Positions 11,957 through 48,358 of a stretch of DNA of 64,000 bases are shown here, piece after piece (position 1 is the stretch's first letter; each line of letters begins with the position of its first letter). Under the pieces are notes generated by a model that was not told the DNA's origin, made no database searches, and was given only the letters and a program-made list of their open reading frames with translations. The translations under genes and the position numbers were made by a program. The stretch is from NCBI GenBank assembly GCA_031180825.1, contig JAPSLM010000003.1, forward strand, positions 62,001 through 126,000. Reading direction: 5' to 3'. Source of the stretch: Paenibacillus sp. GTDB lineage: Bacteria; Bacillota; Bacilli; Paenibacillales; NBRC-103111.

Positions 11957-11969
11957 CGTCACCCACTCC

Positions 11970-13916
11970 TTACTCGAGATTCAACTGCTTCTTGATGGCA
12001 GTCACGATGGATGCGGCGACCTTGTTTTGAAAAGCATCCTGATACAACAGTTCCTCTTCCGTTCGATTACTCAAGAAGCCGATTTCCAGCAGTACGGCCG
12101 GCATAGTCGAGTTTTTAATGACGACGAAACGCTCCTGCTTCACTTTGCGGTCCGGAAAACCGGTAGCCTCGATAAGATGCTCGTGCATCAGCTTGGCAAA
12201 ATCGAGACTTTGCTCCGTCCAATAATACGTTTCTGTCCCGCCGACCGTTTCTTTTCCGGCGGAATTGGCATGAATCGAGATAAACAAATCGGCATCGGCG
12301 TTGTTTGCCATGGTCGGGCGGTCTTCCAATTCGATGAACGTATCGTCCGAGCGAGTCATCGTCACTTCGATCTTCGGCTCTTTCTCCAGCAGAGCCGCCA
12401 CCTTCCGGCCGAGCGATAGTACGGCGTCTTTCTCATGCCGATTATGCAGCGAGCTGGCTCCGTTATCCTTGCCGCCATGTCCGGGATCGATGAAGACCCG
12501 GTAGCGGGTTTTACCGAAAGATACTTTCCCGGTAATTTCCCCGTTTTGCTGAACGGAGGCCAAGCGAAGCTCCCCCTTCTGCGGCAAATCTAATACTATT
12601 CTAACGATAGATGCTTCTTTTGAAAATAGCGAATAACGAATTTGTGTGACAAATTCGCTCTTATCCGGCAAAGTTCCTTCGCCTTGCGGATTGAGCTTGG
12701 CCATAAGCGCCGGGTCCAGCTGCGCGTTCGGCAGATCAAGAACGATCCGGTCCGGATTGGCCAAACGGAATATACTCGGCTTTCTGGCGCAATCCGACGC
12801 TTTGATCGTCAGCGTATCGCCTTGCAGCGAAATCGATTGTACGGTAACCAAGCCGTTTGCGGCGCTTTTGTCGCCGGACGCTTCCTGCTTGCCCGCTGCC
12901 GGCGGCTGCGTTCCGCCCGCCGCTTGCTGCGTTCCGCTTCCCGATTGTGCCGTTCCGTTCGACGCCGTTTCGTTCGAAGCTTGACTTCCTCCGGCCACCG
13001 GGGACGTGCTGCCGTTCGCCGGCTGCGCAGCGCCGTTTGCCGACGGCGAAGCGCCATTCGCCGGCTGCTGGCTCCCTGCGGCCGCTGTCGTCCCGCCGCC
13101 GGTTGACTGCATGCCCCCGGGCGCGGGGACGCAAGCCAATAGCTGCCCGGAACCGCTTTTCCCCGGCGATGTCCCTCCCGCGGGGGAATTGGTTCCTCCG
13201 GGTAACGGCGAAGTGCCGGTTTCCTTTCCGGCGTTCTTTCCGCTGTCGGGCTTATCGCCCGCTTTCACTGTGCCGTCGGGCTTATCGCCAGCTTTCACTG
13301 TATTGTCCGGTTCGAACGAGGAGGCGGGCTTGCCGTCGGCCGGCACGGTGCCTGGCTCTTTATCGCCGGGCTTGCCGACGACGATGCCGGGTTCTTTATC
13401 GCCGGGCTTCTCCGTTTTCGAAGGCGTCTTATCGTCTTTGCCCTTTTCCGGCGTGGACAAATTAACCGCCTGGTTGCGTTCGTCCCATGATACCTTTACC
13501 CCTAACTGCTCGCTTACGAACCGTACGGGCAGCATCGTATTGCCCTCAATGATTGTGGGCGCCGCCTCCAGCTGAAACGATTTCCCTCCTGCCGTTGCAT
13601 TCTTCTTGTCAATAAATAGCTGTATATTGGTTTCGTCTTTCACTACCGTAACTTTTCGCTGTTTCTCATCCCAGGTAACCTTGGAGCCGAGCTCTTCCGC
13701 AATGATTCGAACGGGCACGATGACGCTCCCGTCCACGTTGCGCGGAGCGACTTCCGGCGCAAGCTTTTTTCCGTTTAATACCAACTGAATTGGCGGCGCG
13801 GGCGGCTTAGACGACTTCGGCGTGGGTGATTTGGACGGAGCGGCTGCCGAGCCTACGGCCGGCAGCAACAGGAGCGACGCGATCGACAGGGTGAACCAAG
13901 CCGTTAAAAATTTCAT
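11970..13916 (-). CDS. N-acetylmuramoyl-L-alanine amidase (Amidase_3) with two stalk domains and AMIN domain
   Basis: A 648-residue secreted cell-wall hydrolase. After the signal peptide come two copper-amine-oxidase-N-like stalk domains, recognised by VIVPVRIIAEELG and MLPVRFVSEQLG (about 45-155). A low-complexity Gly/Pro/Thr/Ser linker of ~190 residues follows, then an AMIN domain (about 355-450) and a zinc amidase domain (about 460-648). The zinc and catalytic residues are visible: His in DPGHGG, Glu in RHEKD, His in SIHAN and Glu in LLEIGFLSN. The ATG at 13916 has a GAGGTG site and is preferred over a TTG at 13928. The linker is coded by short direct repeats near 13244-13301. Confidence 0.92.
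   Translation of the reverse strand: MKFLTAWFTLSIASLLLLPAVGSAAAPSKSPTPKSSKPPAPPIQLVLNGKKLAPEVAPRNVDGSVIVPVRIIAEELGSKVTWDEKQRKVTVVKDETNIQLFIDKKNATAGGKSFQLEAAPTIIEGNTMLPVRFVSEQLGVKVSWDERNQAVNLSTPEKGKDDKTPSKTEKPGDKEPGIVVGKPGDKEPGTVPADGKPASSFEPDNTVKAGDKPDGTVKAGDKPDSGKNAGKETGTSPLPGGTNSPAGGTSPGKSGSGQLLACVPAPGGMQSTGGGTTAAAGSQQPANGASPSANGAAQPANGSTSPVAGGSQASNETASNGTAQSGSGTQQAAGGTQPPAAGKQEASGDKSAANGLVTVQSISLQGDTLTIKASDCARKPSIFRLANPDRIVLDLPNAQLDPALMAKLNPQGEGTLPDKSEFVTQIRYSLFSKEASIVRIVLDLPQKGELRLASVQQNGEITGKVSFGKTRYRVFIDPGHGGKDNGASSLHNRHEKDAVLSLGRKVAALLEKEPKIEVTMTRSDDTFIELEDRPTMANNADADLFISIHANSAGKETVGGTETYYWTEQSLDFAKLMHEHLIEATGFPDRKVKQERFVVIKNSTMPAVLLEIGFLSNRTEEELLYQDAFQNKVAASIVTAIKKQLNLE
13244..13301. 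repeat. Tandem 30-bp coding repeat in the amidase linker
   Basis: Two near-identical ~28-base copies (core TCGGGCTTATCGCC plus GCTTTCACTGT) lie 30 bases apart and encode a KAGDKPDG-type motif. A related unit, CTTTATCGCCGGGCTT, recurs twice just downstream on the plus strand. Such repeats favour length variation of the linker. Confidence 0.7.
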
Positions 13917-27026: not shown

Positions 27027-27165
27027 CACATGTCCTTCTCATATGATCCTTCTGTCTCGGTCCGGTGAGGCTCAGAGCAGAATCCGACATATTGCTTGGG
27101 TAAAGCTATTGAGTTGTTCCAAACATACGATTGAAGTACAGCTCCATACGGATACCGTCTTCGTA
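27027..27165 (-). ncRNA. Candidate structured 5' leader of panBCD, or free-standing RNA
   Basis: The ~140 bases between a strong promoter and the terminator contain no plausible ORF but can fold. One hairpin, near 27044-27085, pairs TCTG-CTC with GAG-A-CAGA, leaving a bulged A. A pan RNA motif with conserved bulged adenosines is known upstream of panB genes in several bacteria; I cannot confirm membership by eye. Alternatively this is an independent RNA of about 175 nt ending at the terminator. Confidence 0.5.
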
Positions 27166-39746: not shown

Positions 39747-40259
39747 TTACGTCCGTTCTTTTCGATATTCCTCGCCCTTCAAGCAGTAGCTTTCCATGGT
39801 CCGTTTCATTCGTGCAAGATCCGGCTCCTTCAGCTCGCGCACCACTTTCGCCGGGGATCCGAGCGACAGGGTATACGGGGGGATCGTTTTGTTTTCGGTC
39901 ACGAGAGAACCCGCTCCTATTAAAGCATATTCACCGATCACGGCGCCGTTAAGTACAATCGCCCCCATGCCGATTAATGTGCCTCTGCCTACGCGGCACC
40001 CGTGAATAATGGCGCCGTGTCCGACGGAAACCTCGTCTTCGACGATAAGCGGCTGGTCCGTATTGACATGACCGATGCAGCCGTCTTGGATGTTGCTCCT
40101 TCGTCCGATTCGGATCGGGGCCAGGTCGCCGCGCAGCACCGCATTGTACCAGACCGTTGCGCCCTCGCCGATTTCCACGTCGCCAATAAGCTGCACGCCC
40201 GATGCGAGAAAAGCGGTAGGATGAACCTTAGGGGTAATGCCGTTATAGCTGTGAAGCAT
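39747..40259 (-). CDS. Gamma-class carbonic anhydrase family protein (left-handed beta-helix)
   Basis: A 170-residue hexapeptide-repeat protein with the isoleucine-patch repeats of the gamma-carbonic anhydrase/YrdA family. Metal-ligand histidines are visible in IGHVNTDQP and VGHGAIIHGC, with the Arg/Asp/Gln set in LRGDLAPIRIG and SNIQDG. Family members are carbonic anhydrases or related trimers, and activity varies. The ATG at 40259 has AAAGGAG 11 bases upstream; the open frame extends to 40340 without a site. Confidence 0.85.
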   Translation of the reverse strand: MLHSYNGITPKVHPTAFLASGVQLIGDVEIGEGATVWYNAVLRGDLAPIRIGRRSNIQDGCIGHVNTDQPLIVEDEVSVGHGAIIHGCRVGRGTLIGMGAIVLNGAVIGEYALIGAGSLVTENKTIPPYTLSLGSPAKVVRELKEPDLARMKRTMESYCLKGEEYRKERT

Positions 40260-40346
40260 AGTTTTCGCCACTCCTTTGTCGGCCCGGGTGTCCGTTGTCG
40301 ACGGACGGACCAGCCGGATTAAATGGAGTGATTGTAGCAAGGGGAT

Positions 40347-41474
40347 TCACCGGTTGTCAAATGGCAGCACGATATTTTCTTCGTCAGGCAGATAAGTGCC
40401 TTCAATAATACTGCTGCCGAGCTTCGTCACCTGAATGACACGGCCGTGCCGCTCCTCTTCCCCGATCCTCAGCAGCCCCAGGTGCATCATCATTTGGACG
40501 ATACGCTGCTCCAGGATGGAATCGGGCGTATCATAGTAAAAGGGACGGATCAGAGGCTCGAGCACCCGCTTCACGGAATCGAACGTCACCCAGTCTTTGC
40601 ACAGACGGTTCAGCCATTGAGCGATCGATTGCAGATGAGGAATAGGGCTCTTATAAAGCCTTAACCAGAAACGGTACACCTGAACCGGATCTTCCTTCCC
40701 TCCTTCGCTGACCCGGGCCAGCCCTTGCTCCGTGAGCGCAAGCACCTGATGATGCTCGGTGACGAGATCGTTATAGTAGCAATAGTCGTAGATGAAGGAG
40801 AAACGGTTCGGATATTCGCGGAACATCCGTCCGTAACCGAAACGCCAAGCCGTCTTCCCAACCGGCTCCTCCCGAACGGCCATCCGGTCCAACACCTGTT
40901 GAAGGCTCCTTTTGTACATCGCGTTATCGCTCGTCAGCATCACTTCCTGATCGCGGAGAAACAGCAGGAAGCTTGCGATATCGTCCAGGATCAGCTTTTG
41001 CTCGTCCCGGTAGACAGGAGGCTCTTCTGCGGCAACCAGCTGCTGCCCGAATCGCTTGGTCAGGGCGGCGACAAACCGGCGCTTCAAATCCGCAGGCACT
41101 TGAAACAAATATTTGGTTTGCTGCGAATGGCCGTTAAACAGCCAACCCAGCTGCTTGAAGCGGGTGATCGTATCGCGCGGATTCCAAGCCTCGTCCGTTT
41201 CTTCTTTCTCGAACCGGCTTTGCTGTACCCGGGCGACCAGTTCCTCCAGACTGAACGATCCCCGCTGGTCGAATAGCAGCGAGTTAAGAAAGCGGATATC
41301 CCGTGTGGACAACTCTCCGATCTGGCGATCGAAAATGTCCCTTCGCCCCACCGTCGACAAAATCGATTGAATCAGCTCGTTCTTCGAATGACCGTTGCAC
41401 TCGCAGTTGTACGCGCCTGCGATGCGGCTCAGCTGGTGAATGTCGGCATAGCTTAACATGTCGGCTAAGTTCAT
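40347..41474 (-). CDS. Conserved protein of unknown function, possible nucleic-acid-binding N-terminus
   Basis: A 375-residue soluble protein. The first ~40 residues (ADIHQLSRIAGAYNCECNGH then SKNELIQSILSTV) look like a SAP or Rho-N-type helix-extended-helix module. Several winged-helix-like stretches follow (LEELVARVQQ, ILEQRIVQMMMHLGLLRIGE, VTKLGSSIIEGTYL), reminiscent of the accessory regions of XPB-like helicases. There is no ATPase motif or catalytic pattern. It stands between a phosphatase gene and the gamma-carbonic anhydrase gene. Nucleic-acid binding is a guess; function unknown. Confidence 0.7.
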   Translation of the reverse strand: MNLADMLSYADIHQLSRIAGAYNCECNGHSKNELIQSILSTVGRRDIFDRQIGELSTRDIRFLNSLLFDQRGSFSLEELVARVQQSRFEKEETDEAWNPRDTITRFKQLGWLFNGHSQQTKYLFQVPADLKRRFVAALTKRFGQQLVAAEEPPVYRDEQKLILDDIASFLLFLRDQEVMLTSDNAMYKRSLQQVLDRMAVREEPVGKTAWRFGYGRMFREYPNRFSFIYDYCYYNDLVTEHHQVLALTEQGLARVSEGGKEDPVQVYRFWLRLYKSPIPHLQSIAQWLNRLCKDWVTFDSVKRVLEPLIRPFYYDTPDSILEQRIVQMMMHLGLLRIGEEERHGRVIQVTKLGSSIIEGTYLPDEENIVLPFDNR

Positions 41475-41578
41475 CCGTTCGTCCCTCCAGAACTTCCCTC
41501 CAAACTTTCCTAGTACCCATTATGGGAAAATGTTCTAGATTTAAACGCGGTCATTGAAAGTTTATTTCCGTCCGGCGC

Positions 41579-41632
41579 AAAAAAAGCCGGGCCGCCCGCA
41601 TTTTCTAATCATAGAAATGCGTGCAGCCCCGC
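41579..41632 (-). terminator. Intrinsic terminator after the histidine phosphatase gene
   Basis: A long, slightly bulged minus-strand stem (GCATTTCTA with TAGAAAATGC, extended by GC-rich pairs to AGC/GCT) is followed by seven T. Confidence 0.75.
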
Positions 41633-41660
41633 TTCATCTTCAGCCCTATATATACTTCCG

Positions 41661-42251
41661 TTACGCCCCTTGTCCAAGCTCCGCGAGATGGACGGTGCAG
41701 TTCAGAAGACGGCATTGCCAGCCGTCCGATGTCCGCTCCATGACCGTGAGCGACGTATTGCTCAAATGCTCTTCGAGCTTTCTTCCGATAAACTGCGCCA
41801 GCACCGGTGCGATGTACCCGCCATGACTAACGAGCAGGATCCGCTTGCCCAAATGGTCGCGGTCCACATCCCACAGAAAGGACGCCCAGCGGGCAAGCAG
41901 CTTCTCATCGCTCTCGACGCCGAGATCCATCTCTCTCCACCCTTCGCCCCAGCGGTCGATACGCTCCTGCAAGGTTGTCCCTTCCAGCTCGCCGAACGCA
42001 CGTTCCCTAAGCCTGACATCCAAGCCAAGAAGCGGAGCTCCGGTAAGGCGGGATATGGTAAGAGCCGTTTCTTTGGCCCGCAGCAGGTCGCTGGCAATGA
42101 TGCCGTCCCATGCCTCTCCCGCAAGCCGCTTTGCCAGCAATTCGGCCTGTACCCGGCCCACGTCGGCCAAGGGCGTATCCATCTGCCCCTGCATGCGCCC
42201 CGCCAAATTCCACTCCGTTGTCCCGTGACGTATAAATCCAAGCGTTAACAT
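41661..42251 (-). CDS. Histidine phosphatase (phosphoglycerate mutase-like) family protein
   Basis: A 196-residue protein with the catalytic RHGTTEWN motif near residue 8, SDLLRAKETA, a second-histidine region in VSHGGYIAPV and the acid in RERAFGELEG. The family covers small-molecule phosphatases such as alpha-ribazole phosphatase, PhoE and mutases. Without other cobamide genes nearby the substrate cannot be named. It lies 70 bases after the anti-sigma gene, behind a weak hairpin. Confidence 0.85.
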   Translation of the reverse strand: MLTLGFIRHGTTEWNLAGRMQGQMDTPLADVGRVQAELLAKRLAGEAWDGIIASDLLRAKETALTISRLTGAPLLGLDVRLRERAFGELEGTTLQERIDRWGEGWREMDLGVESDEKLLARWASFLWDVDRDHLGKRILLVSHGGYIAPVLAQFIGRKLEEHLSNTSLTVMERTSDGWQCRLLNCTVHLAELGQGA

Positions 42252-42291
42252 TCGTTCGCCGACTCTCCTTTTTATGACTGCTGGAAAAGAT

Positions 42292-42312
42292 AAAAGCCCC
42301 GGAAGCAGGGCC
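42292..42312 (-). terminator. Weak terminator after the anti-sigma gene
   Basis: Minus-strand GCCC and GGGGC form a short hairpin around TGCTTCC, followed by TTTT. Confidence 0.45.
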
Positions 42313-42320
42313 TTGGTTCG

Positions 42321-42947
42321 TTACTGGCGCGTGCGCGAAAACCAGTTCATGATCAGGAGCGTGCCGGTCAATCCGAATAACGAAACGAAGAGCATATAAT
42401 CGTTGACCGTACGAATCGGTCCGACCTGATACATAAACGGATCGCTGAACCCGCGAAGGCTTGCTACGGCCGTAGGCATCGCATGCACGTTCATCGAATC
42501 CGCTTGTCCGGCAACGGCCACGACGGGATCGTTCATGCGTCCCAAAACGGCGGATTCGTGTGCGGAGCCTGCTTCGTAGCGACCGTCGTTCATAAACGAG
42601 AAATAAAAGGTGACCATAAATAAAGCGATAAAGCAGGCGATCACCGCAGTCAGGTTCCGCCGCAGCTTGTAGGAGAACCGATACAGACGGTCGCCGACAG
42701 GAACGCGCCACGACTCATTCTCGTAGATTCGCTTCATTACGCTGGAAGATACGGAAACCCCACCGGTATCGAATGGCGCTTCCACCCCGGCCGTGCGTAT
42801 TAATTCCGTGCTCTCCTGCCATATTTGAAATTCTTCAGCGCATGACGGGCAATTTTTGATATGCTCATCCACTGCCAGCCGTTTCGGATCATCTTCCGGC
42901 AGATCCCAGTATACGCCGAAAAAATCGTAAACGTCATCGCATTTCAT
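42321..42947 (-). CDS. Zinc-type anti-sigma factor, membrane protein
   Basis: A 208-residue protein. The N-terminal zinc-binding anti-sigma domain has the His-x3-Cys-x2-Cys motif in HIKNCPSCAEEF (near 29-36). There is one membrane helix at about 95-115 (TAVIACFIALFMVTFYFSFM) and a second hydrophobic segment near the C-terminus (about 185-203). It overlaps the ECF sigma gene by 4 bases. By analogy it would hold the sigma factor at the membrane until an envelope signal releases it; the signal is not known. Confidence 0.85.
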   Translation of the reverse strand: MKCDDVYDFFGVYWDLPEDDPKRLAVDEHIKNCPSCAEEFQIWQESTELIRTAGVEAPFDTGGVSVSSSVMKRIYENESWRVPVGDRLYRFSYKLRRNLTAVIACFIALFMVTFYFSFMNDGRYEAGSAHESAVLGRMNDPVVAVAGQADSMNVHAMPTAVASLRGFSDPFMYQVGPIRTVNDYMLFVSLFGLTGTLLIMNWFSRTRQ

Positions 42948-43537
42948 CGTCGATTCATCTCCTCATACTCCTCAAAGATCGGTTCAAGAAAGTATGGTTC
43001 CAGTTGAAGCTTTACACTGGCCCTTGCTCTGAACAACAAAGACTTGACCGAACTCACTGTTTGTCCGAGGATATTCGCTATCTCTTGATAATCAAGCTGG
43101 TCATACTCTCGCAATATAAGCGCGGAACGCTGCTTCTCGGGCAGATTGTTGATCGCATCGCGAACCATAGTCACCTTTTCGTTGCGAAGCGCCGTTTGTT
43201 CCGGCAATGTTTCCACCGCGGTTTGAGGCGTGTATCCGCTTTGCTCCAATGAAACCTGGGTGTTCTTATGTTTACGCAGCTCGCTAAGAACCGTATTGCG
43301 CGCAATGGTGTAGAGCCACGTGGAAAAGGTCGCCTCTACCTCGCGAAACGAATGCAGGCTGCGGTAGGCCTTGTAAAATGTCTCGTTGCACAAGTCCTCC
43401 GCCAGCGATTCCATTTGCGCGCTTTTCAGCATATGAAAGATGAATGCCAATATTTTACGTTCGTAGCGGCGCATTAATTCATCGTATAGTTGGACGTTGC
43501 CGTCCTTGATTTCTCTGATCAACTGGGAATCGGTCAT
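42944..43537 (-). CDS. ECF-type RNA polymerase sigma factor
   Basis: A 197-residue group IV sigma factor. Region 2 includes EDLCNETFYKAYRSLHSF and TFSTWLYTIARNTVLSELRK. Region 4 includes LPEKQRSALILREYDQLDYQ and the helix-turn-helix EIANILGQTVSSVKSLLFRAR. It is cotranscribed with the overlapping anti-sigma gene. The ATG has AAGGAGGG 12 bases upstream. The 400-base gap upstream holds a small-RNA candidate, the tyrA terminator and an imperfect ECF-like -35 motif near 43614. Confidence 0.9.
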   Translation of the reverse strand: MTDSQLIREIKDGNVQLYDELMRRYERKILAFIFHMLKSAQMESLAEDLCNETFYKAYRSLHSFREVEATFSTWLYTIARNTVLSELRKHKNTQVSLEQSGYTPQTAVETLPEQTALRNEKVTMVRDAINNLPEKQRSALILREYDQLDYQEIANILGQTVSSVKSLLFRARASVKLQLEPYFLEPIFEEYEEMNRR

Positions 43538-43779
43538 GCGAGTGCGACCCTCCTTGTGATTCCTGCTTACTCCCAGCGATGCTACTTTGTTGTACTGTCG
43601 GGGGAGTAAAAAAGTTGCGGTCTATTTTAAAATTTTTATTAGAAATTGGGGACGATCTTAATAACCTTCGAGGTAACAAGCCAAAAATCCTGCTTTTCCG
43701 ACAAGATTCATAACTTTTTCCAAAAACAGGTGTGCACTTTTACTCTTTATCAACCCATTTTCTGTATATGCGCATCGGC

Positions 43780-43857
43780 AAAAAAAAGACCGCCTGAATT
43801 TCAGGCGGTTGCACAGAGTGCCATTATTCGGATAGGAGTGGAGAGAAACCATACTGT
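43780..43857 (-). ncRNA. Candidate small regulatory RNA (~78 nt) with its own promoter and terminator
   Basis: Transcription from the consensus promoter at 43864-43892 would start near 43857 and meet a ten-base perfect terminator stem (ACCGCCTGAA/TTCAGGCGGT, 43789-43809) followed by eight T. The ~78-nt product has an unpaired pyrimidine-rich 5' half containing UUUCUCUCCACUCCUAUCC, then a small GCAC-UCU-GUGC hairpin and the terminator. An in-frame ATG lacks a ribosome site and has no stop before the terminator, so coding is unlikely. The C/U-rich part is complementary to Shine-Dalgarno sequences. No family that I know matches. Confidence 0.65.
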
Positions 43858-43863
43858 ACTTTT

Positions 43864-43892
43864 ATTATATGTATACGTTTACAAAATGTCAA
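43864..43892 (-). promoter_or_regulatory. Full-consensus sigma-A promoter of the small RNA
   Basis: Minus-strand TTGACA (43892-43887) and TATAAT (43869-43864) are separated by exactly 17 bases, 12/12 matches to consensus. This is the strongest promoter seen in the window, and no protein gene follows it before the terminator. Confidence 0.88.
43870..43883. promoter_or_regulatory. cre-like CcpA operator in the promoter spacer
   Basis: TGTATACGTTTACA matches 13 of 14 positions of the cre consensus TGWNANCGNTNNCA and is nearly palindromic. It fills the spacer between -35 and -10 of the small RNA promoter, so bound CcpA would block RNA polymerase. Confidence 0.65.
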
Positions 43893-43901
43893 TGGCTTTT
43901 T

Positions 43902-43915
43902 TGAAAACGTTTCCG
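43902..43915. promoter_or_regulatory. Second cre-like site upstream of the small RNA promoter
   Basis: TGAAAACGTTTCCG matches 13 of 14 positions of the cre consensus. Its centre lies 32 bp from the spacer site, about three helical turns, placing both on the same DNA face. Confidence 0.5.
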
Positions 43916-43926
43916 TTTTTTTTTAG

Positions 43927-43961
43927 AAAAAAAGACTACACGTGAACCGCGTAGTCTTTTT
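43927..43961. terminator. Terminator spanning the tyrA stop codon
   Basis: AAAAAAGACTAC and GTAGTCTTTTTT pair around a loop of about ten bases. The TAG stop of tyrA is part of the stem, and a T tract follows on both strands. Confidence 0.82.
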
Positions 43962-45024
43962 TAAGCAATTCCAGCGCTTTGTCCATCTGGCCTTCCTCGC
44001 GGAACGACAACCGCAAAACCCCGGGCACGTCTTCCCGGCTTTCGATGATCTGAATGTTGCTGAGGTTGATCCGGTGGCTGCCCAGCAGCGTCGTGATCTG
44101 TGCGATGATACCCGGATGGTCGGGCACGTCCACGTAAATATCGTAGAACGAATGAATGACGCCCTTACGCCGCTCCGGCAAGCCGTTGCGGAACTGGTTG
44201 GCCTTCTGAAACTCGCGCTCGATGCCAAGGCCGTCTTCCGCTTCCAGACGTCCGATAAACCCGGCAATTTCGTCATTCCAGTCCCGAAGCAGCTTCAAGA
44301 GCACTTCACGGTTGTTGATGAGAATATCCCGCCAGATGACCGGATCGCTGGAAGCGATGCGCGTAATGTCGCGGAAGCCGCCGGCAGCCAAGTTCTGATA
44401 AAGCTCGTTCGATTCGTTGTATCGGGCGATCTGGTTCACAAGCGCAACGGCAATAATATGCGGCAGATGGCTGATTGCGCCGACAATCTCGTCATGCAGC
44501 ACCGGGTCTACCTTCACCAGATGCGCCCGGGTATGCTCAAGCAGCTCCGCAAGCCGGTCGTAAGCGTCCTTCGGCGTCCCGGCATCCGGCGTGAGCACGT
44601 AAAAGGCGTTCTCGAACAGCCTGGAGCTGGCCGCTTCCACACCCGACTTCTCCTTGCCCGCCATTGGATGGCCCCCGATAAAATAGACGCCCGGCAGCTG
44701 CAGACGCGAAGCGCAGGCGGTCACGCTCGCTTTCGTACTGCCTACATCGGTGATGATACAGCCCGGCTTGAGCGGAAGAGCGGATAGTTTATGCAGATAC
44801 TCCTCAAGGTTGCCCACCGGGACGCACAAAAAAATAAAGTCCGCCTCCGCTGCTGCTTCCTCAATCGAAGTGGTCGCATGATCCACCACTTCGCGCTTCA
44901 AATATTTCTCTACGGACTTCGGGTTATTGGAATGGCCGACGACCGTCAGTCCCGGTTTGCCCTTGAAGCACAGGGCCAACGAGCCGCCGATTAATCCGAC
45001 TCCGAATATGGCAACCTTTGTCAT
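43936..45024 (-). CDS. tyrA: Prephenate dehydrogenase with C-terminal ACT domain
   Basis: A 362-residue NAD-dependent enzyme of tyrosine synthesis. Rossmann motif GVGLIGGSLAL, catalytic-region GGHPMAGKEKSGV and the helical dimer domain are followed by an ACT domain (about 290-360, VDVPDHPGIIAQITTLLG), likely for tyrosine feedback control. It overlaps hisC by 4 bases. Unlike B. subtilis, no EPSP synthase gene follows; the unit ends here in a terminator. Confidence 0.95.
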   Translation of the reverse strand: MTKVAIFGVGLIGGSLALCFKGKPGLTVVGHSNNPKSVEKYLKREVVDHATTSIEEAAAEADFIFLCVPVGNLEEYLHKLSALPLKPGCIITDVGSTKASVTACASRLQLPGVYFIGGHPMAGKEKSGVEAASSRLFENAFYVLTPDAGTPKDAYDRLAELLEHTRAHLVKVDPVLHDEIVGAISHLPHIIAVALVNQIARYNESNELYQNLAAGGFRDITRIASSDPVIWRDILINNREVLLKLLRDWNDEIAGFIGRLEAEDGLGIEREFQKANQFRNGLPERRKGVIHSFYDIYVDVPDHPGIIAQITTLLGSHRINLSNIQIIESREDVPGVLRLSFREEGQMDKALELLKKDYAVHV

Positions 45025-46121
45025 GAGACGGCCACTTCGCTCAGAACTTGCTCCAGCGCTCCGAGGAATTTGTTGTTCTGCTCTTCGCTGCCCACCGTTA
45101 CCCGGATCATCGTCGGGTAGCCCCAGCTCGGGTCATGGCGCACGATAATTCCTCTGCGCAGCAGCCCTTGGAATACGGCGCTTCCGTCCCGCTTTACGTC
45201 AACCATAATGAAGTTGCCGTGTGCGTCGAAGCAGGACAAGCCCATCTCGGCGAATTTCGCTGTCAGCTTCCGGATGCCTTGCGCGTTCGCCTCGCGGCAG
45301 GATGCGATGAACGCCTCGTCGTTTACCGCCGCCAGCGCCGCTTTTTGGGCAAAGCTCGTCGTATTGAACGGCTCGCGCACCTGATTGATCGAGCGAACGA
45401 CATCGGGATGGCCTACGCCGTAACCGATGCGCAAAGACGCCAAGCCGTAAATTTTGGAAAACGTGCGCAGTACGACGACATTCTTGTGCTTCTCCAGCAG
45501 CTTGACGCTGTCGGGATATTGCCCGCTCACATTGTACTCCGCGTAAGCTTCGTCCAGCACGACCATGACGTTCTTCGGCACGGCCTCCAGAAACGCCGTA
45601 ATTTCCGCTTCGTTCAGCATCGTCCCTGTCGGGTTGTTCGGGTTGCAGACCCAAACAATCTTCGTGCGGGAATTTATTTTGCCCAGCATCGCTTGCAGAT
45701 CGTGCTTTCCGTTCGCATCCACAGGCACCTCGATCACCTTGGCCCCTTCGACCTCGGCATTGTGCTTGTATTGCGGAAACGTCGGATAGGCGGTAATGGT
45801 CTCGTCTTCCGGAGTCAAGAAGGCTCGGGCGATCATCAAAATCACTTCGTCCGATCCTAATCCGAAAATAATTTGATTCGGCTGTACCCCCAGCTTACCG
45901 GCAACCGCATTCGTCAGTTCAACGGCGCCGCCGTCCGGGTAAATGCTGATCTGGTCCAGCATTCCGGAGATCGCTTCCTTCGCTTTGGACGAGCATCCGA
46001 AAGGATTTTCATTGGAAGCAAGCTTGATCACTTCCATCAGACCAAGCTCGCGTTTGACTTCGTCAATCGGTTTTCCCGGCTGGTAGACCGGGAGATGAAC
46101 GATATTTTGTTTAGGCTGCAC
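45021..46121 (-). CDS. hisC: Histidinol-phosphate aminotransferase (also aromatic transaminase)
   Basis: A 366-residue class I/II PLP aminotransferase. Motifs are YQPGKPIDEVKRELG, SNENPFG, WVCNPNNPTG and the PLP lysine in RTFSKIYGLASLRIGYG. In Bacillus the same enzyme serves histidine synthesis and tyrosine/phenylalanine transamination, which explains its place next to tyrA. The GTG at 46121 is nine bases after GAGGTG; another GTG at 46133 lies inside that site. Confidence 0.94.
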   Translation of the reverse strand: MQPKQNIVHLPVYQPGKPIDEVKRELGLMEVIKLASNENPFGCSSKAKEAISGMLDQISIYPDGGAVELTNAVAGKLGVQPNQIIFGLGSDEVILMIARAFLTPEDETITAYPTFPQYKHNAEVEGAKVIEVPVDANGKHDLQAMLGKINSRTKIVWVCNPNNPTGTMLNEAEITAFLEAVPKNVMVVLDEAYAEYNVSGQYPDSVKLLEKHKNVVVLRTFSKIYGLASLRIGYGVGHPDVVRSINQVREPFNTTSFAQKAALAAVNDEAFIASCREANAQGIRKLTAKFAEMGLSCFDAHGNFIMVDVKRDGSAVFQGLLRRGIIVRHDPSWGYPTMIRVTVGSEEQNNKFLGALEQVLSEVAVS

Positions 46122-46314
46122 GACAAAGGTCACCTCGTTACATGAATTAGTAGCTCCAATACCGGAATCATTTCCCCATTAATTTTCGCACAAGTCTAAG
46201 AAAATGTTAAGCTTTATATTTATCGCCATAACCCATCTTTTCATATAATAGGCTTAAATTTCTTGCCGCGTCCTTGCCTTTCAACTGCTCGTGAACGAAC
46301 AACGAGAAATTCTA

Positions 46315-46352
46315 AACAGCCTCGCTGGATTCATCCATTTAGCGAGGCTGTT
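46315..46352 (-). terminator. Hairpin after trpA, possible terminator
   Basis: AACAGCCTCGCT pairs perfectly with AGCGAGGCTGTT around a 14-base loop, starting five bases after the trpA stop codon. The T tract is poor (TTTAGAATTT), so termination may be partial. The remaining 46122-46314 gap upstream of hisC shows no clear promoter to me. Confidence 0.55.
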
Positions 46353-46356
46353 CCTT

Positions 46357-47166
46357 TTATCCAATCAGTTGTCGAACAAATTCATGAATTTTCGAGAGCC
46401 CTTGCGATTTTGTCGACTCATTCGTCAGGAGAGGCAGCGTTTCTTCCACCGTACGCACCAAAGCGCTGCCCACAACGATCCCGTCGCACGTCCCGGCGAA
46501 TCGCGCAAATTGATCCGGCGTAGAGATGCCGAAGCCGATGGCGATCGGCAGACCGGTCGACGATTTAACGGTGTTCAAAAATTCGTCAATGCCGCTGTGG
46601 AACTCGGCCCGCGTTCCCGTCACGCCGAGCGAAGATACACAGTAAACGAAGCCGCTGGCGCGCGACGCGATTTGCTGCACGCGTTCTTTGGAGGTCGGAG
46701 CGACGAGCGGAATGAGATGAAGGCCGTGCTGCTCCGCCAGCCCCCGTACCTCTTCATCCTCCTCCATGGGCAGATCTGGAATAATAAGTCCGTCGATTCC
46801 ATTTTCTTGCAAAAGCTTAAAAATACGGTCAAGCCCCGTCTGCAGCACAGGATTATAATAAGTAAATAAAACAAACGGGATTTCGCAGCCTTCGCTGCGC
46901 GCCTGACGGGCCGCCCCGATGCAATCGAGAATCGAGATGCGGTTCGCTTGGAGCGCGCGCATGGACGAGCGCTGGATCACCGGGCCGTCCGCCAGCGGGT
47001 CCGAATAGGGAACACCAAGCTCGACCATGGCGGCCCCTGCTTTCTCAAGCTCTTTAATAATGTCAACCGAGGTCCGCACGTCCGGGTCCCCGATCGTCAA
47101 AAACGGGATGAAAGCCGGCTGTTTTTGTTCACGCAGCTCGGCGAATTTCCGGTCAATGCGATTCAT
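46357..47166 (-). CDS. trpA: Tryptophan synthase alpha subunit
   Basis: A 269-residue (beta/alpha)8 enzyme cleaving indole-3-glycerol phosphate. Catalytic residues are the Glu in [18 protein letters not shown] and the Asp in [10 protein letters not shown]; the phosphate loop is GFGIST. It overlaps trpB by 14 bases and is the last gene of the trp operon. Confidence 0.96.
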
Positions 47167-48358
47167 CGGCAGTTCCTCCCAAATAATTCATGATCGCTTC
47201 CACATCTTTGTCGCCGCGTCCGGAGAGACTGACAACAAGGATTTCGTCTTTGCCCATGGCGGGCGCCCGCTTGATCGTCTCGGCGATCGCGTGCGCGCTT
47301 TCCAGCGCCGGGATAATCCCTTCCTTGCGGCTCAGCAGCTGCAGCGCGTCCAGCGCTTCTTTATCCGTGATCGGAACGTACTCCGCCCTTCCCGTATCCT
47401 TCAAATGAGCATGCTCCGGCCCGACGCCCGGATAATCGAGTCCGGCGGATATCGAGTGCGCTTCCAGGACTTGACCGAATTCGTCCTGCAGCAAATAGCT
47501 GTACGAGCCTTGGAACACCCCTTGGCTGCCTTTCGTCATCGTCGCGGCATGCTTATCCGTATCGACGCCGCGTCCGGCGGCCTCAACGCCGATCAAACGC
47601 ACGTTCTCGTCCTGTACGAACGGATAGAACATTCCGATCGCATTGCTTCCCCCGCCAACAGCCGCGATCACCGCATCCGGCAGCCGCCCTTCCAGCTCGA
47701 GAATTTGCTTGCGGGATTCGTCACCGATAATGCGTTGGAAGTCCCGTACCATCATCGGGTACGGATGCGGGCCGGTAGCCGAACCGAGGATGTAGAACGT
47801 ATCGTCCACGTGGCTCACCCAGTAACGCAGCGTCTCGTTGCAGGCATCCTTCAGCGTCCGGGTGCCGGAAAGCACCGGAACGACTTCCGTACCGAGCAGG
47901 TTCATCCGGAACACGTTGAGCTGCTGCCGCTTCATGTCCTCCTCGCCCATAAACACCTTACACTCAAAGCCGAGCAGCGCGGCAACCGTGGCTGTAGCAA
48001 CGCCATGCTGGCCGGCGCCGGTTTCGGCGATAATTTTCGTTTTGCCCATCCACTTCGCAAGCAGCCCTTGGCCGAGCGCGTTGTTAATTTTATGAGCTCC
48101 CGTATGGTTCAAATCCTCGCGTTTCAAGTAGATTTTGGCGCCGCCCAAATGCTCGGTCAACCGTCCTGCGTAATATAAAGAAGTCGGACGCCCCGAATAA
48201 CGGTGCAGCCAGTAGTTCAGCTCCTCCTGAAAACGAGCGTCTTTGGTGTATTTTTTAAACGATTCCTCCAGCTCGATCAAAGCGTTCATCAGCGTTTCCG
48301 GCACGTAACGCCCGCCGAACTTGCCGAATCGGCCGTGAATATCCGGTCCGTTATACAA
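47153..48358 (-). CDS. trpB: Tryptophan synthase beta subunit
   Basis: A 401-residue PLP enzyme that condenses indole with serine. The PLP lysine is in [13 protein letters not shown], the catalytic Glu in ETGAGQHG, and the phosphate-binding loop is GGGSNAIG. The start is a TTG at 48358 overlapping the trpF end, with GAGAGGGTG seven bases upstream. Confidence 0.97.

Follow-up and report, generated by a model that had tools for sequence, protein, structure and literature searches.

A probable C/U-rich small RNA with cre-like operators, conserved among Bacilli and absent from Rfam 15

Known C-rich small RNAs and the unit downstream of tyrA

Apart from 6S RNA, RsaE is described as the only known trans-acting small RNA (sRNA) common to S. 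aureus and B. subtilis, and its C-rich regions are able to pair with Shine-Dalgarno sequences (PMC4409812). The unit studied here resembles RsaE/RoxS (RF01820) in being a stand-alone sRNA of Bacilli with C-rich regions and deep conservation (PMC4409812). It differs in its control signals; RsaE/RoxS is reported to be controlled by ResD and Rex (PMC4409812, PMC8216469), whereas the new sRNA has cre-like operators. RosA of Bacillus subtilis has a promoter that is repressed by CcpA in glucose, measures about 225 nt, carries three G-rich regions and no C-rich region, and serves as a sponge of RoxS and FsrA (PMC8216469). The likeness of our unit to RosA lies in CcpA, by repression there and by cre-like sequence only here; unlike RosA, the new sRNA is ~78 nt long and C/U-rich. 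RsaI (RsaOG) is CcpA-regulated, with a C-rich region for mRNAs and two G-rich regions, and is conserved in Staphylococcus and not in Bacilli (PMC8216469). The original prediction had compared the unit to RsaI, and the C/U-rich region agrees with this, whereas no G-rich tract was seen by eye outside the terminator in the window RNA, nor in the aligned core and linker, and the unit had no Rfam match. FsrA and CsfG of B. subtilis are also sRNAs with C-rich regions, and differ from the new sRNA in their Fur and sporulation-sigma control (PMC8216469). The sequence of CsfG was compared through Rfam only, if it is in Rfam.

The window is the whole stretch of 64,000 nucleotides of Paenibacillus sp. 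DNA that was analysed. The unit sits on its minus strand between tyrA, whose stop lies at 43936, and an ECF sigma-factor gene (Table 1). Most of the architecture claimed for it in the original prediction was borne out. The sigma-A promoter is the sole 12/12 site within 40000-48000, a region in which 8 sites reach at least 9/12, where shuffled sequence gave 4.9 (sd 2.2). The fold likewise upholds the upstream tyrA terminator, and a stretch similar to it occurs in the nearest relatives only (alignment, by eye). No convincing gene was found between promoter and terminator, where two mechanical open reading frames (ORFs) cross the stretch. The terminator was correctly recognized as a stem with eight T, but the stem has 9 counted pairs rather than ten, and a C precedes the T run. 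Folding of the window RNA gave z = −2.89, and its 5' end is predicted near 43857.

Table 1. Features of the sRNA unit and its neighbours in the window.
Feature	Position	Strand	Basis or remark
Upstream neighbour tyrA, prephenate dehydrogenase	43936..45024	minus	NF005107.0 above cut-off
tyrA terminator, insulating the sRNA unit	43918..43966	minus	Fold −19.9 kcal/mol, z −6.9
Upstream cre-like site CGGAAACGTTTTCA	43915-43902	minus	8/10 fixed positions (own count)
Sigma-A promoter TTGACA-17-TATAAT	43892-43864	minus	12/12 consensus match
cre-like site TGTAAACGTATACA in promoter spacer	43883-43870	minus	9/10 fixed positions = 13/14
Predicted sRNA, ~78 nt	43857-43780	minus	Promoter and terminator geometry; 59/60 relatives with homologues
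Near-invariant core GTATGGTTTCTCTCCACTCCTATCC	43854-43830	minus	Conservation and folding across homologues
Small hairpin GCAC-TCT-GTGC	43811-43821	minus	Fold
Intrinsic terminator stem, then T run	43809-43789	minus	Stem kept, sequence varying between lineages
Downstream neighbour, ECF sigma factor	42944..43537	minus	TIGR02937.1 above cut-off

At gathering score, Rfam 15 gave no match to the unit in the window or in eight homologue-bearing loci, and a permissive scan of the unit returned sub-threshold matches only. Strings of the core were not found in the open-access papers searched; a transcriptome table may nevertheless list the sRNA. Literature on Paenibacillus together with sRNA, CcpA or RoxS contained no evident match in titles and the beginnings of abstracts. 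The minus-strand stretch very probably encodes a ~78-nt RNA without an Rfam 15 family. The unit is real and strongly conserved; its kind, the C-rich stand-alone sRNA, is known, and its family is absent from Rfam 15. Elsewhere in the window, RF01749, the pan motif RNA, reached its gathering score at 27048-27161 on the minus strand.

Conservation within the order and distribution beyond it

The 201-nt unit was used as a BLASTN query against 60 relatives, all of the same order as the window, and matched 58 of them (27 of 29 genera). One of the misses, G046, holds a diverged copy that was found by a core-pattern search, which brings the relatives with a homologue to 59 of 60; the remaining miss, G059, is a 1.4 Mb genome. 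The alignment comprised 57 loci, leaving aside L058 and L059 of genome G007, whose sRNA gene is divided between the ends of two contigs. These loci were retrieved by the whole unit including the core, with the core itself not demanded. The 25-mer core was identical in 56 of the 57 (the exception is L044), and TTGAC followed by a TATAAT-like −10 box preceded it in all 57 under a tolerant pattern. The alignment was variable farther upstream, past the 3' end of the core and in the terminator stem. Averaged over 187 distinct loci (duplicate regions removed, as in the cre count below), information content was 1.91 bits per position for the core, 0.87 for the promoter stretch and 0.25 for the sequence immediately downstream of the core; part of this set was retrieved via the core itself, and the 57 BLAST-found loci agree. 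The C/U-rich segment is thus conserved beyond promoter and terminator, the point on which a test had been set in advance.

Allowing up to 3 mismatches, the core was found in 161 of 398 genomes drawn evenly from Bacilli, covering 69 of the 146 genera sampled. One genome matching a reversed-control pattern was noted in the same scan, and one of the 161 core matches (G364) lies inside a reading frame and was judged to be due to chance. A second draw of 398 genomes across the phylum gave seven core matches, all in the window's own order, with none in the nine other Bacilli of that draw and none in the 382 genomes outside Bacilli. In the genomes sampled, the sRNA is restricted to Bacilli, and by no means all members of the class have it. 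Scanning for the exact 25-mer gave at least 118 matching stretches, at least 80 of them with titles. Genera among the matches listed were Paenibacillus, Cohnella, Thermobacillus, Brevibacillus, Aneurinibacillus, Thermoactinomyces, Melghirimyces, Shouchella, Halalkalibacter, Alkalihalobacterium, Alteribacillus, Marinococcus, Geomicrobium, Caldalkalibacillus and Pseudalkalibacillus. Phage and plasmid collections (blastn) and viral contigs (exact 21-mer) had no match to the sRNA.

Several loci showed further features. Two sRNA copies occur in some genomes (L240-L243 with L454-L457; L458-L460); within one family, TATGG is replaced by TCAGG in the second of them, which has its cre-like site at −44. 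Directly after the sRNA terminator in L069, L133 and L164 come a large serine recombinase (PF00239, PF07508) and a repressor of the S24 type (PF00717; domains assigned on the L133 copies), as though an integrative element attached itself at the 3' end of the sRNA gene; the split gene of G007 was noted beside this idea. In Alteribacillus (L076), two Bacillaceae-1 RNAs (RF01690; 5601-5668 and 6171-6238) flank the sRNA.

cre-like sites around the core

Sites were scored against TGWNANCGNTNWCA, which we take to be the cre consensus with its 10 fixed positions, and a site was called cre-like when at least 9 of the 10 were matched within about 110 bp of the core. Two 13/14 matches had been claimed for the window, 32 bp apart from centre to centre. 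The spacing is correct and the spacer site stands as described; the upstream site falls short in our own count (Table 1). Across homologues, a cre-like site was present in 158 of 186 distinct loci; among control windows cut from the same records the count was 70 of 3184 (2.2%). The commonest place was −27/−26, within the promoter spacer (115 sites among the 186 loci), and 31 sites of at least 9/10 lay at −58/−57, about 32 bp farther up. Most copies of one family have the site at −48 or −44, and 30 sites, from Brevibacillus and alkaliphilic Bacillus relatives, fall at +59 to +65, inside the terminator hairpin. In L084, L085, L092, L107, L130 and others the operator-like site and the terminator hairpin are the same bases.

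No site of at least 9/10 was found in 28 of the 186 loci, including those of Aneurinibacillus, Melghirimyces, Thermoactinomyces and Pseudalkalibacillus and a number from Paenibacillus. A further 20 copies, most of them picked because they were mismatched or duplicated, included ten without such a site. The CcpA control originally proposed is therefore backed by cre-like sites in most lineages, but not in those 28 loci. The shifting positions suggest selection for a CcpA input that would have been kept while its putative site moved, and the sRNA is probably CcpA-repressed.

Pairing potential, targets and alternative readings

To describe accessibility of the core, 151 homologues were folded (153 distinct RNAs, of which 2 under 66 nt were dropped; L154, with its core at the end of the stretch, was dropped from the terminator comparison). 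The mean unpaired probability of the core was 0.70. UUUCUCU and ACUCCUAU were mostly predicted to be unpaired, UGG was predicted to be paired in nearly all folds, and the CCA between UUUCUCU and ACUCCUAU in about half. At least two hairpins followed 3' of the core in 148 of the 151. Because hairpin lengths differ, neither RNAalifold nor model R1 gave a useful consensus.

On this evidence we think it likely that the unit is a stand-alone, CcpA-repressed, trans-acting sRNA of Bacilli that pairs with Shine-Dalgarno regions. In the presence of preferred sugars, CcpA would hold off the sigma-A promoter, as the operator-like sites suggest; on its release, an RNA of about 70-105 nt would be made. The mostly single-stranded C/U-rich core would then pair with the purine-rich Shine-Dalgarno regions of several mRNAs, a step suggested by base composition, accessibility and the RoxS/RsaE precedent, and pairing would block translation or alter mRNA stability. 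The two hairpins, the second being the terminator, would close and protect the RNA. Several findings speak against this explanation: an invariant stretch of 25 nt exceeds the typical need of seed pairing, the core is not fully open (UGG paired in nearly all folds, CCA in about half), 28 of 186 loci have no cre-like site, no mRNA recurs convincingly as a target, and near full-length complementary sites are barely above the reversed control.

The latter sites were sought with GATAGGAGTGGAGAGAAACC at up to 3 mismatches in 60 genomes, giving 20 sites besides the known sRNA genes vs. 13 for the reversed control; one of the 20 is the diverged sRNA copy of G046, leaving 19 non-sRNA sites. Two lay just before the ATG of a longer ORF (L179, transporter-like, and L190), in one genome each, and many others lay inside longer ORFs. 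The transporter-like gene of L179 (G047:C13:79728-79747) has a ribosome site that agrees with the core complement at 17/20 positions directly before its ATG, in one genome only. When wobble was tolerated, the complement pattern matched at 158 places, of which about 57 were sRNA genes, and the reversed pattern at 71. With the start-codon pattern GGAGAGAAACCATG and one mismatch, the matches listed covered at least 30 loci, 6 of them sRNA genes, and no gene recurred in 24 loci among them; any pattern resembling a ribosome site would show such an excess over the reversed control. In 16 genomes, AGGAGTGGA placed before an ATG gave 169 matches vs. 38 for reversed controls. From this set 130 loci were read, 92 with a usable ORF, and weak recurrences were seen for nucleotidyl-transferases, HisIE-like proteins and HAD hydrolases (3 genomes each, one member of each named by Pfam) and for pairs of other families. 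By rough estimate, about three such pairs would arise by chance, and we claim no target from them. Neither the 60 relatives nor the 16 genomes searched with AGGAGTGGA before ATG yielded a convincing recurrent mRNA target.

Two targets had been named in the original prediction, the gamma-carbonic anhydrase and GerMN genes. The 8-mer AGGAGTGG is indeed present at 40268-40275 and 11963-11970; counting the sRNA's own antisense, this makes 3 matches vs. 1.02 expected, a number reached in 9 of 100 shuffles and therefore near chance, and the two genes lack support as general targets. Carbonic-anhydrase leaders were compared within the order, where GGAGTG occurs in 23 of 27 readable leaders, about ten from very near relatives (3 of 30 were dropped with an unreadable start), and accounts for 32 of 457 GGAG-type ribosome sites of other genes. 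In 19 of the 27, the reverse complement of the leader's own ribosome-site hexamer lies upstream. In 18 of them this upstream element is CACTCC, which usually has the form TACAATCACTCC and lies where the mRNA probably begins. Since this upstream CACTCC is complementary to GGAGTG, a cis hairpin explains the conservation as well. Nor is the match kept outside the order: GGAGTG was found in 0 of 10 sRNA-bearing genomes with a carbonic-anhydrase gene, compared with 2 of 20 genomes that bear RsaE; at the E-value used, no carbonic-anhydrase match was obtained in 10 of 20 sRNA-bearing genomes. In the window (40323-40260, minus strand) and in L394-L422, the leader has CACTCC just after TACAAT and a GGAGTG ribosome site, and it looks like a conserved cis-pairing leader.

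The sRNA might instead act mainly through another partner, such as a protein, the ribosome or one dedicated RNA that it sponges, which we regard as rather unlikely. About 20-25 nearly invariant bases would fit one conserved partner, the lack of a convincing recurrent mRNA target points the same way, and the core resembles what we take to be the 16S anti-Shine-Dalgarno tail. However, a partner RNA was sought as near-complementary patterns only, and the C/U-rich unpaired core with its cre-like operators resembles the base-pairing C-rich sRNAs of Firmicutes (PMC4409812, PMC8216469).

That the unit is a member or distant orthologue of RsaE/RoxS is very improbable. A UUUCUC..CC..UCC stretch is present in both and there was no credible co-occurrence in 398 genomes, but RF01820 scored the window unit at 17.9 bits, on the opposite strand, against a gathering score of 79, which does not make it a member. 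RF01820 also matched 0 of 60 relatives under stricter filters that lose some weak matches, with the B. subtilis control detected. The three RsaE loci that were read have a neighbourhood unlike the usual tyrA/hisC/aroA setting of the sRNA, comprising what we take to be a pepF-like gene and others. In the Bacilli sample, RF01820 was found in 112 of 398 genomes (E ≤ 0.001; 82 above the gathering score), and its overlap with the 161 core-bearing genomes was one, the chance match in G364, where 45 were expected. At the family level, a hand count without G364 placed the sRNA in 30 and RsaE in 17 of 59 families, with none shared. This corresponds to P of about 2e-7 if families were independent; families are related, so this P overstates the exclusivity, which adds no independent evidence and could come from a single replacement passed on through shared ancestry.

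Placement of the sRNA bears on whether it could act in cis, as a leader or attenuator for the gene that follows, or be a 3' end processed from the tyrA/aroA operon; either is extremely improbable. Neighbours were identified by clustering translated ORFs, with tyrA, hisC and the sigma factor named via the window's own genes, and aroA and the TPR protein being names that we presume. Among the matches listed, at least 80 loci had titles; 59 followed a tyrA/hisC/aroA-like gene in the same direction, 12 were inverted (5 Paenibacillus, 3 Shouchella, 3 Halalkalibacter and 1 Bacillus solitudinis), and 9 were elsewhere or without clear placement. Often the sRNA is flanked by tyrA or an aroA-like gene on one side and by the gene for a sigma factor or TPR protein on the other, all reading the same way, as expected of such a leader or 3' end. 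Yet the 12 inverted copies stand beside the same neighbours, and a leader of the next gene or an operon 3' end therefore cannot explain them. Downstream genes also vary and can be convergent, second copies exist, and the inspected copies have their own promoter; in 20 of 20 further copies, mostly divergent or duplicated, the promoter-like stretch and terminator were kept (by eye). The unit carries its own promoter and terminator, independent of its neighbours, as expected of a stand-alone sRNA, and this independence together with the inverted copies supports the trans action originally proposed.

A leaderless or short peptide, MVSLHSYP..., could be read from the ATG in GTATGG, which is situated a few bases downstream of the predicted start and is retained in most copies. 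We give this reading almost no credence: several copies have TCAGG, TGAGG, TGTGA, TGTGG or TGTAG instead of TATGG yet retain the promoter, the core and the terminator, third codon positions vary as little as the other two, the reading frame beyond the core varies and no Shine-Dalgarno sequence precedes the ATG.

Returning to the stand-alone sRNA, it is probably an old, overlooked metabolic regulator. More tentatively, and with considerable doubt, it may be an ancient carbon-status sRNA that acts as the counterpart of RsaE/RoxS where RsaE is absent, one lineage having replaced it by RsaE and others having kept it. The CcpA operator would then have shifted among three places, namely the promoter spacer, the sequence upstream and the terminator hairpin; in the last of these, CcpA might block elongation or couple termination to sugar status. 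The unit represents a second sRNA family of very wide conservation, from Bacilli where RsaE was not found. Its core is invariant across so many genera that cross-species mapping of targets is directly testable, and the moving CcpA-like operator, sometimes within the terminator, would offer a natural experiment in how a regulatory input can persist when its DNA site does not.
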